From NCBI RefSeq assembly GCF_009451885.1, contig NZ_WIAO01000011.1, positions 1-64,000 of the forward strand: a stretch of DNA of 64,000 bases, in the 5' to 3' direction. Below are positions 6,058-10,262 of this stretch, piece by piece (position 1 is the first letter of the stretch; every line of letters begins with the position of its first letter). A model generated the notes under the pieces. It was not told the DNA's origin. It worked only from the letters and a program-made list of their open reading frames with translations, and ran no database searches. The translations under genes were made by a program, and so were the position numbers. This DNA comes from Glycomyces albidus. GTDB lineage: Bacteria > Actinomycetota > Actinomycetes > Mycobacteriales > Micromonosporaceae.

Positions 6058-6279
6058 GCGGACGCACCGAGGACGGGCCGGGCCCGCCGACACGCGGCAC
6101 CCGTCGGCGCCCGGGCCTCCGGGCCCGCGCCTCCACCCGATGAAGGATGAGTGAAAGCTCACAGTCGGGGCGGAATCCGCAGCTCCGGGCGAGGTAACCT
6201 CGACACGCGGCCCGTCGTCGGCGCGAACTCCGGCGCTCTCTCGAACAGCGGGCCTCCCAGAACTGTCGGACCCGAACGT

Positions 6280-6291
6280 TAGATTCCCAAC
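6280..6291 (+). promoter_or_regulatory. -10 element directly before uvrA, leaderless transcript likely
   Basis: TAGATT at 6280-6285 ends 6 nt before the GTG start at 6292. No Shine-Dalgarno sequence lies between. No convincing -35 and no LexA box (CGAAC-N4-GTTCG) was found in the 230 bp upstream. Confidence 0.45.
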
Positions 6292-9261
6292 GTGGCCAAC
6301 GAGCACCTTCTGACCGAACCGAAACCGCATTCAGAGTCTGATCGACACGCGTCAGGCACCATCGTCGTCCGCGGCGCGCGCGAGCACAACCTCAAGGACA
6401 TCGACCTCGACCTGCCGCGCGACTCCCTGATCGTCTTCACCGGCCTCTCCGGCTCGGGGAAGTCCTCCCTCGCGTTCGACACGATCTTCGCGGAAGGCCA
6501 GCGCCGCTACGTCGAATCGCTCTCGGCCTACGCCCGCCAGTTCCTCGGCCAGATGGACAAGCCCGACGTCGACTTCATCGAGGGCCTCTCGCCCGCGGTC
6601 TCGATCGACCAGAAGTCGACCTCGCGCAACCCGCGCTCGACCGTCGGCACCATCACTGAGATCTACGACTACCTGCGGCTCCTGTACGCCCGGGTCGGCG
6701 TCCCGCACTGCCCGCAGTGCGGCGAGGAGATCGGCCGCCAGTCGCCGCAGCAGATCACCGACCAGATCATGGCCCTGCCCGAGGGCACCCGGTTCCAGGT
6801 CCTCGCCCCCGTGGTCCGCAAGCGCAAGGGCGAGTTCGTCGACCTGTTCGCCGACCTCCAGCAGCAGGGCTACGCGCGCGCCCGCGTCGACGGCGAGGTG
6901 TACGCCCTCACCGACGCGCCCAAGCTCAAGAAGCAGGAGAAGCACGACATCGACGTGGTCATCGACCGCCTCGTCGTGAAGCCCTCCTCGATCCAGCGCG
7001 TCACCGACTCGGTCGAGTCGGCGCTCGGCCTCGCCGACGGCGTCGTCGAACTCGACTTCGTCGACGTCCCCGAAGGCGACCCGGCCCGCACCCGCCGGTT
7101 CTCCGAGAAGCTCGCGTGCCCCAACGACCACCCGCTCCAGCTCGACGAGCTCGAGCCGCGCACGTTCTCGTTCAACGCGCCCTTCGGCGCGTGCCCGGTC
7201 TGCCACGGCCTCGGCGTCCGCAAGGAGGTCGACCCGGAACTGGTCATCCGCGACCAGGAGGCCACCATCCGGGCCGGCGCGCTCGCACCCTGGTCCTCGG
7301 TCGGCATGGGCGACTACTTCCTGTTCCAGATCATCGCGCTCGGCGAGGCCGTCGGCTTCGACGTCGACACGCCCTGGGCCGACCTGCCGAGCCGCGCCCA
7401 GAAGGCCGTCCTCTACGGCTACGACGAGACCCTCCAGGTCGCCTACCGCAACAAGCGCGGCCAGCGCCGCTCCTACGAGACCCGCTTCGAAGGCGTGGTC
7501 CCGTGGGTCGAGCGGCGCCACCACGAGACCGACTCCGAATGGACCCGCGAGAAGTACGAGCAGTTCATGCGGGAGATCCCGTGCTCGACGTGCGAGGGCA
7601 CCCGCCTCAAGCCGGAGGTCCTGGCGGTCACGGTCGAGGGCCTGTCGATCCACGAGGTCTGCACCCTGTCGATCCACGAGTGCTCCGCGTTCTTCAACGC
7701 GCTCAAGCTCTCCGACCGCGACACCATGATCGCCGCGCCGATCGTCAAGGAGGTCACGGCCCGCCTCCAGTTCCTGCTCGACGTCGGCCTCGACTACCTG
7801 ACGCTCGCGCGCGCCGCCGGCAGCCTCTCGGGCGGCGAGGCCCAGCGCATCCGGCTCGCCACGCAGATCGGCGCGGGCCTGGTGGGCGTCCTGTACGTCC
7901 TCGACGAGCCCTCGATCGGGCTGCACCAGCGGGACAACAACCGGCTCATCGCCACCCTGGAGCGCCTGCGCGACCTGGGGAACACGCTCATCGTCGTCGA
8001 GCACGACGAGGACACCATCCGGGTCGCCGACCACATCGTCGACATCGGCCCGGGCGCCGGCGAGCACGGCGGCGCGGTCATCTACTCCGGGCCCGTCTCG
8101 GGCCTGACGGAGGCCGAAGGCTCCATCACCGGCGACTACGTCTCGGGCCGGCGCCACATCCCGGTCCCCGAGCAGCGCCGCAAGCTCGAACCGGGCCGCG
8201 AACTGGTCGTCAAGGGCGCCCGGGAGAACAACCTCAAGGGCATCGACGTCACGTTCCCGATGGGCTGCATGGTCTCCGTGACCGGCGTGTCCGGCTCCGG
8301 CAAGTCCACGCTCGTCAACGAGATCCTGTACAACACGCTCGCCTCGGAGATCAACGGCGCCAAGCTGGTCGCCGGCAAGCACCGCACGATCACCGGCCTC
8401 GACGGGGTCGACAAGGTCGTCGGCGTCGACCAGTCCCCGATCGGGCGCACGCCGCGCTCGAACCCGGCGACGTACACGGGCGTGTTCGACAAGGTCCGCA
8501 AACTCTTCGCGGGCACGCCGGAGGCGAAGGTCCGCGGCTGGGGCCCGGGCCGGTTCTCCTTCAACGTCAAGGGCGGCCGCTGCGAGGCGTGCGGCGGCGA
8601 CGGCACCCTGAAGATCGAGATGAACTTCCTGCCGGACGTGTACGTCCCGTGCGAGGAGTGCGGCGGAGCCCGCTACAACCGCGACACGCTCAAGGTCCAC
8701 TACCGCGGCAAGACGATCTCCGACGTGCTCGACATGCCGATCGAGGAGGCCGCGGGGTTCTTCGAGCCGATCCAGTCGATCCACCGGCACCTGAAGACCC
8801 TGGTCGACGTCGGCCTCGGCTACGTGCGGCTCGGCCAGCCCGCCCCGACCCTGTCGGGCGGCGAGGCGCAGCGCGTGAAGCTCGCTTCGGAGCTGCAGAA
8901 GCGCTCGACCGGCAAGACCGTGTACATCCTCGACGAGCCGACCACCGGCCTGCACTTCGAGGACGTGCGCAAGCTCCTCGGGGTCCTGGACGGCCTGGTG
9001 GACAAGGGCAACACGGTGATCACCATCGAGCACAACCTCGAAGTGATCAAGTGCTCCGACTGGGTCATCGACCTCGGGCCGGAAGGCGGTGACAAGGGCG
9101 GCACCCTCGTCGCCGCCGGCACGCCCGAGGAGATCGCCGCCATCGCCGCGAGCCACACCGGCCACTACCTCCGCCCGCTCCTGGGCCTGGACGGCAAGGG
9201 CAACGGCGACGGCCCGGCCGCGAAGCGAGCCCGCTCGGGCAACGGCCGCACCAGGAAGTAG
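6292..9261 (+). CDS. uvrA: Excinuclease ABC subunit A
   Basis: Damage-recognition ATPase of nucleotide excision repair; dimer that loads UvrB on DNA lesions. The 989 residues include two ABC modules: Walker [10 protein letters not shown] near residue 52 and GVSGSGKST near residue 665, with ABC signatures LSGGEAQRI and LSGGEAQRV. Zinc-binding cysteine sets are visible at [15 protein letters not shown] / CSTCEGT and CEACGGDGT / CEECGG. The GTG at 6292 is the start, with a -10 box 6 nt upstream rather than a ribosome site. The C-terminal tail ([12 protein letters not shown]) is basic and probably disordered. A strong terminator and a repeat array follow. Confidence 0.97.
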
Positions 9262-9267
9262 CGAATC

Positions 9268-9315
9268 CGCGAACAGCGGCGGCGAGCCGAATCGGCCGCG
9301 CCGCCGCTGTTCGCG
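9268..9315 (+). terminator. Terminator after uvrA
   Basis: Perfect 15-bp stem CGCGAACAGCGGCGG (9268-9282) with its complement at 9301-9315, 18-nt loop, beginning 7 bp past the uvrA stop. Confidence 0.75.
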
Positions 9316-9332
9316 CGCCGGCGAGCCGACCT

Positions 9333-9585
9333 GGATCACGAGGCCGGGCGTGTCGGTTCGCGATCGCCTCCGGCTGCAACGATGCCATGAGGGTCTGATA
9401 CCCGTTGGGTCGCAGCCGGATCGCGAGGTCGGGTGTGTCGGGTTCGAGTCGCCCCCGCTTTCAACGATGCCATAGGGGTCCGACACCGTTGCGCGGCAAG
9501 CGGATCGCGAGGTCGGGTGTGTCGGTTTCCGGCCGCCCCGGCTTCGATGGTGCCCTGAGGGTGTGACAGTCGTTCTGTCGGCGTG
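9333..9585. repeat. Three imperfect tandem copies of an 84-85 bp structured repeat
   Basis: The core GGATC(A/G)CGAGG(C/T)CGGG(C/T)GTGTCGG begins at 9333, 9418 and 9502. Each unit continues through a variable block, the conserved CAACGATGCCAT(G)AGGGGT-like block and a return arm. In units one and two the flanking arms differ in sequence but remain complementary: CCGGCTGC (9370-9377) with GCAGCCGG (9412-9419), then CCGCTT (9455-9460) with AAGCGG (9498-9503); the inner CAACG/CGTTG pairing is also kept. The third unit has lost the arms. It ends in an 8-bp GTGTCGGC microsatellite (about 9577-9604). The 407 bp between uvrA and the peptidase hold nothing else recognisable. Confidence 0.8.
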
Positions 9586-9668
9586 TCGGCGTGTCGGCGT
9601 GTCGGACTTGCCGGCGACACGGGTCTCGGAATGCGGGTCGGGGCGGTTCGGGGTGCGAGCATCTGGAG

Positions 9669-10262
9669 ATGCTGTTCGCTGGGGCGGCCGTGGTCGCGTT
9701 CGTCGCCGTTCCGGGGTTGCGTCGGGCCGTGGCGGTCGCGACCGCCCGGCGGCCCGGGTGGTGGCCCGTCGCCGTGGCCGCAGTCGTTGTGTCGCTCGTG
9801 ATCGCCTGGCGCGCAACCGAAGTGCTTCATGCCGCCGCGCTCTCCGTCGTCGCCGCATCGGGTATCGCCGCCGCCTGGATCGACGCGTATGAGCGCCGCC
9901 TGCCCGATGTGCTGATCCTGCCGCTGTACCCCGTCGTCGGGGGTCTCCTCGTCGCGGCCGGCGATCCCGAGCGGCTGCTTCGCGCCGCCGTCCTCGCGGG
10001 TGTCGCGATGGGACTCTTCGGGCTCGGGTGTGTCGCGGGGCAGATGGGTTTCGGCGACGTGAAGCTCGCCGGACTGCTCGCGCTCGCCCTCGCGTGGACC
10101 GACTGGGGGACCGCCGGAGTGGCGCTCGCGGCGACCGCCGCCATCGGCGCCGGACAGGCGCTCGTTTCGATCACCTTGGGCCGCAATGACTTTCCGTACG
10201 GGCCGGCGATGCTCGCCGGAGCCGCCGCGGCTGTTGCACTCGCGCCGTTCGCGGCCGGCTGA
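9669..10262 (+). CDS. A24-family prepilin peptidase (TadV-like)
   Basis: Integral membrane aspartic peptidase that would cleave type IV or Tad/Flp prepilin leader peptides. About 197 residues with six or seven hydrophobic segments. The two catalytic aspartates are in WIDAYERRLPD and in the GFGDVKL motif. The N-terminal methylase domain of PilD-type enzymes is absent, which is typical of the short TadV/Flp form. The ATG at 9669 (MLFAGAAVV) is chosen because the upstream in-frame extension is repeat-derived and polar. No pilin or Tad cluster is in the window, so its substrate gene lies elsewhere. Confidence 0.85.
   Translation: MLFAGAAVVAFVAVPGLRRAVAVATARRPGWWPVAVAAVVVSLVIAWRATEVLHAAALSVVAASGIAAAWIDAYERRLPDVLILPLYPVVGGLLVAAGDPERLLRAAVLAGVAMGLFGLGCVAGQMGFGDVKLAGLLALALAWTDWGTAGVALAATAAIGAGQALVSITLGRNDFPYGPAMLAGAAAAVALAPFAAG

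Follow-up and report, generated by a model that had tools for sequence, protein, structure and literature searches.

MIRU and REP-like repeats, as commonly described, are short, dispersed and intergenic, with tandem copies that vary between genomes, and the 13E12/DUF222 HNH repeat genes of actinobacteria may have promoters similar in shape to the repeats described here. The latter agree with MIRU and REP-like elements in having many intergenic copies whose tandem number varies between relatives, but differ in that their conserved part is 35 bp long with promoter grammar, and in that the linkers differ between loci. With the DUF222 genes they share a multi-copy occurrence, but a link to them is unsupported, since the Glycomyces genome G007 had no DUF222 match and yet carries 60 copies, and no complete core was present among the matches near DUF222 genes. 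Another comparison is with the promoters of the PafBC-type, RecA-independent (RecA-NDp) damage response, whose M. tuberculosis motif is given in PMC8151990 as TGTCGG (or TGTCAG, TGTCAC)-N10-TA-N3-T. The repeats resemble these promoters in TGTCRN, the ten-base spacing and nAnnnT, the spacing being that of the published motif (PMC8151990) and also that of the uvrA, uvrB and polA promoters of the same genome. In contrast to PafBC promoters, however, they mostly carry CAnnnT, their -10 is preceded by a conserved GG and followed by a conserved CCGGGGGC, and they come in arrays and are not sited before genes. According to PMC9380542, the M. smegmatis motif is seemingly not conserved in Streptomyces venezuelae; thus, it cannot be assumed across actinobacteria.

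The window, which is the whole stretch of 64,000 nucleotides of Glycomyces albidus DNA analysed here, carries an array of such repeats between uvrA and a gene (9669-10262) whose product has a type IV leader peptidase domain. The uvrA gene (excinuclease subunit A; 6292..9261, plus strand; NCBIfam equivalog NF001503, 1554 bits) is preceded by a putative PafBC-type promoter, TGTCGGACCCGAACGTTAGATT (6264..6285, plus strand), with the start codon 6 nt further on, and an identical 22-base stretch stands before uvrA in seven further genomes among the sites listed. Just 3' of uvrA there is a perfect 17-bp inverted repeat (9268..9315) that we interpret as its terminator; no T run follows it, and generic sigma-70 promoter and terminator scans of 9200-9750 found nothing. 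Elsewhere in the window, a tandem repeat of 39 bp (2777-2884; 2.8 copies, 94% matches) straddles the 3' terminus of a called gene.

An earlier note on this DNA had described the array as a structured repeat, and the repeat itself was borne out. TRF yielded a period of 84 bp in 2.5 copies with 80% matches (9333-9544), and the whole array (9333-9567) is made of three head-to-tail units. The repeat copies are spaced by 85 and 84 bp, and the cores by 85 and 83 bp. Since the core pattern matched three times in the window and 0.00 times on average in 100 shuffles, the array is beyond chance. The three cores lie on the minus strand. That of unit 1 (9365..9400) consists of a -35-like TATCAG (9400-9395), ten bases, a -10-like CATCGT (9384-9379) and GCCGGAGGCG, with two mismatches to the family pattern; that of unit 2 (9450..9485) of TGTCGG (9485-9480), ten bases, CATCGT (9469-9464) and GCGGGGGCG, with one mismatch; and that of unit 3 (9533..9568) of TGTCAC (9568-9563), ten bases, CACCAT (9552-9547) and GCCGGGGCGG, with two. 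A second block, CCGACACRCCCGACC, stands further downstream in a subfamily that includes all three units: it reads CCGACACGCCCGGCC in unit 1 (9342..9356) and CCGACACACCCGACC in units 2 (9427..9441) and 3 (9511..9525), in all cases on the minus strand. Directly upstream of unit 3, an 8-bp tandem repeat, TGTCGGCG (9576-9605, 3.8 copies, 100% matches), itself repeats TGTCGG.

When copies from different loci were compared, only about 35 bp were common to them (profile of 290 copies, loosely found and some of them false; 223 were kept after filtering, some still weak), and the linkers differed between loci. In the window this common part is read on the minus strand, as the array matches in the same genome show, and it can be written as TGTCRNACCC-N4-GGCANNNT-N5-CCGGGGGC. 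It is this conserved, promoter-like minus-strand core that the earlier reading missed. The second block was found near the core in 31 of the 223 copies, and 20 of these 31 had it at one of the two commonest distances; at one locus (L235) CCGACACACCCGACC recurs many times in a tandem-like manner without the core. The free positions of the core might evolve faster than the linkers, since their pooled identity was 0.59 as compared with 0.68 upstream and 0.79 downstream, but nothing rests on this comparison, because the arrays had been preselected at a flank identity of at least 70% and the search pattern already included the fixed positions.

For a non-circular test of the -10, 22 genomes of the genus were searched with the two ends of the core separated by 17 unspecified middle bases. 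This ends-only pattern was found at 227 places in 16 of the 22 genomes, and at none in the control. Base counts were made on the 150 copies listed among the 227 counted: there was A at -11 (the second -10 position) in 148 and T at -7 (the sixth) in 147, and the three bases between them were nearly free. Such an A/T pattern is the grammar of a putative -10 hexamer and, with the TGTC-type -35 and the N10 spacing, 146 of these 150 copies carry both letters of a candidate PafBC promoter. The first -10 base was C in 135 of the listed Glycomyces copies, G in 7, T in 6 and A in 2, so that the canonical TA start is absent from most of the main family. It is present in 14 of the 15 copies listed from genomes of family f15, in which the first -10 base, left free in the search, is T, as well as in a second flavour, GTCGNACCC-N5-GTA[TC]TTTTGNNCCAGGGGTC, which has a canonical TAnnnT -10 and occurs at 1-9 places in 17 of the 22 genus genomes. 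In the genome studied here, this second flavour lies at C9:12472-12505 (L280), C23:249238-249271 (L297) and C69:6979-7012. In two genomes of family f15 (G232 and G050; L227, L238, L228 and L239), all six listed copies of the core are preceded by TGTGGACAA, the reverse of a DnaA-box-like TTGTCCACA.

The genome also has what a PafBC response would presumably use. Two adjacent WYL genes match the PafBC chains of PDB 7p5x and 6sj9, and the second carries the PafC helix-turn-helix domain. The motif TGTCRGACC-N7-TAnnnT was found at 15 places (control, 0), and its -10 stands 6 nt before the start of uvrA, 6 nt before uvrB, 7 nt before polA and 22 nt before a DNA-3-methyladenine glycosylase gene, the last three being names that we assigned by recognizing the translations. 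At three of the 15 places, what follows is instead TTTTTG..CCAGGGGTC, and these three are members of the second flavour. All 22 genus genomes have the TAnnnT motif at 1-22 places each (control, 0-1), the repeat-free genomes included.

The earlier suggestion that the element might be a small interspersed repeat found genome-wide proved right, and relatives carry it as well. A search of the 5.76 Mb genome (88 contigs) with the array gave nine places, and the core pattern matched at 36 places with up to three mismatches, whereas the reversed pattern matched at none. With a slightly wider pattern, 23 of 61 genomes matched. The 16 genus members that a midpoint-rooted tree of uvrA puts together on one side had 6-67 places each, the six remaining members had 0, 0, 0, 0, 0 and 1, and six of 39 genomes outside the genus had 1-4 places. 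The family is thus expanded in one clade of Glycomyces, as defined by that midpoint-rooted tree of part of uvrA. An exact-pattern scan of named genomes returned 16 stretches (12 from Glycomyces, three from one Saccharothrix MAG and one from Umezawaea tangerina), and of 397 genomes searched across the order, 16 gave matches, namely nine of the 11 Glycomyces sampled and seven others, with nine places in G232. In a genome of another family of the order (G040; L040, 1500-1728), three cores spaced by 67 bp are opposed by a further one on the other strand. Our literature search found no paper on the repeat, and one may nevertheless exist.

The most economical account of these results is that promoter-like cores spread and were locally multiplied in one Glycomyces clade. 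The array would consist of three members of a dispersed intergenic family, and each core (TGTCRN, ten bases, a CAnnnT -10 and then CCGGGGGC near the expected transcription start) would be a complete PafBC-type damage promoter, multiplied locally by tandem duplication of units of about 84 bp. After DNA damage, PafBC and RNA polymerase may use the cores, each of which would then start a short non-coding RNA. At this locus the RNAs are predicted to start leftwards near 9540, 9457 and 9372 on the minus strand and to run into the uvrA hairpin, met at 9315-9268, which would give lengths of about 105, 190 and 270 nt. In such a case the cores would have been kept for damage-induced transcription rather than as a passive repeat. 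We hold this whole account, including the use after damage, to be somewhat more probable than all others together, and activity of the cores as promoters is what we infer from their letters and spacing. In its favour are the 36 places against none for the reversed pattern, the A and T kept in nearly all listed copies, the spacing of the published motif, the uvrA, uvrB and polA motifs, the presence of PafB and PafC, and the T that opens the -10 in family f15 and in the second flavour. It is weakened by the C at that position in most copies of the main family, by what PMC9380542 states of S. venezuelae and by the empty generic sigma-70 scan.

The placement and history of the copies also weigh against it, and they bear on a second reading, in which the cores are a REP- or MIRU-like repeat that derives from a damage promoter, is duplicated by slippage, persists near gene 3' ends and is functionless now. 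Placement was analysed in 61 regions, mostly chosen for holding copies, with genes called by a simple codon-usage script. Although these regions are 84% coding, only 28 of 172 copies were inside called genes, and in the own genome 49 of the 51 listed copies lay entirely between them. Among gaps of at least 60 bp, copies were found in 30 of the 84 that are convergent, in 42 of the 222 tandem ones and in 14 of the 107 divergent ones, and in tandem gaps their orientation was with the genes in 21, against them in 20 and mixed in one. Being mostly intergenic, favoured in convergent gaps, avoided in divergent ones and without sense bias in tandem ones, the copies do not have the placement of ordinary gene promoters, and most of them probably drive no neighbouring gene, although single cases may do so. 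Harmlessness near gene 3' ends fits both the convergent enrichment and the lack of orientation bias. Stems of at least 11 were found before the next gene in 18 of the 52 clusters that face antisense and in 0 of the 36 that face sense, and in 25 of 88 on the upstream side; as they are mostly the terminators of neighbouring genes, we discarded them as a sign of small-RNA genes.

Copy number varies at matching sites, as a passive repeat would also explain. In 15 region pairs, mostly chosen for holding copies, it differed between matching gaps (5 versus 3 or 2 versus 3, for example), and where the own genome has one of its three-copy arrays, G008 has an interval of about 37 nt. A survey of the uvrA site in all 22 genomes, allowing up to five mismatches, found the element in only four of them (three units in the own genome, four in G007 and one each in G011 and G013), and in G010 there was a single weak match, lying 739 nt past uvrA and beyond the gap. 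The array is, thus, lost or absent behind uvrA in at least 18 of the 22. Since G000, G007 and G013 fall into one clade together with the element-free G010 and G019, while G011 belongs to another, the pattern implies loss or repeated gain. At three of four aligned sites, chosen for having copies, the cores were recognizable within diverged linkers, which argues against a passive repeat; at the fourth, the G008 core had lost its -35 and -10 letters next to a well-kept downstream flank, which speaks against strict maintenance. Because the -10 letters are nearly invariant even though the flanks of the copies have diverged, we regard a functionless repeat as rather unlikely, though worth serious consideration beside the promoter account.

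The cores might also serve as a sink for PafBC: arrays of binding sites would titrate the activator and determine at what threshold the damage response sets in, with no useful transcription. Two or more copies were present in 34 of the 86 occupied gaps, and the longest runs are head to tail, as such a sink would predict, but binding alone needs no -10 positions and these are nearly invariant, so that we find this reading very improbable.

The earlier note had instead proposed selection on the shape of an RNA or cruciform, drawing on arms that differ between units 1 and 2 and still pair. These arms are present (CCGGCTGC/GCAGCCGG in unit 1 at 9370-9377 and 9412-9419, hairpin 9370..9419; CCGCTT/AAGCGG in unit 2 at 9455-9460 and 9498-9503, hairpin 9455..9503), as are the conserved block CAACGATGCCAT in both units and CGTTG downstream in both; unit 3, as the end of the array, has by eye no matching return arm. 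The pairing is less secure than the array itself. In five internal units from the uvrA arrays of two species (five of the nine units at this site, the four end or single units without a return arm being left out), pairing was seen in 39 of 40 cells and a change on both sides in two pairs, and slid controls paired in at most 55% of cells. Both double changes, however, are in one unit, unit 1 of the window, and 43 of 500 shuffles reached the same covariation value. The inner helix CAACG/CGTTG paired in 70% of cells and poorly in the second species. As RNA, the plus strand in 9333-9590 showed no folding beyond that of shuffles (z -0.21; 77 of 200 equally good), whereas the minus strand folded somewhat better than they did (z -2.38; 3 of 200). 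Over the 223 copies, the longest arm pairing was distributed as in a control with flanks swapped between loci, although the longest single run (9 pairs) is that of unit 1 and one of the three 8-pair runs belongs to the G007 array. Shape does not, therefore, define the family, and no palindromic or structured unit of the REP kind was found in it: the local hairpin is genuine and its covariation weak, a family-wide signal is missing, and the hairpin is a property of the uvrA-array linker on which there is perhaps local selection. As an explanation of the repeat, a selected hairpin is highly improbable.

Three further origins were rejected. A known structured RNA found no Rfam match at the gathering score (three weak matches only, the best with 23.1 bits against 90); the phage, plasmid and viral collections gave no match; and the minus-strand peptide, for which the earlier note had already seen no start or ribosome site, is not translated as far as can be judged, since the spacing of 85 breaks the frame, the HTRPRDP-encoding block lies at a variable distance from the core in other copies, and the element stands behind uvrA in so few genomes and in one to four copies. 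Nor did tRNA genes show a targeting pattern, with four of them in 27 regions of the own genome, two flanking one copy (L087).

In its widest form, our proposal is that one Glycomyces clade spread dozens of damage-responsive PafBC promoters through the 3' ends of genes, often as arrays, so that damage would elicit short non-coding RNAs over the whole genome (or a tunable PafBC sink) unlinked to repair genes, in a system whose promoter units are duplicated and lost locally as it evolves. We put this forward tentatively, as an idea that may well prove wrong. Should the cores be live, the PafBC response would have a large non-coding arm missed by motif searches limited to the upstream regions of genes, and the variation in array size behind uvrA, from zero to four units in the 22 genomes, would offer a ready test of the effect of extra damage promoters. 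If they are dead, they would represent a promoter-derived repeat family that prefers convergent gene ends.
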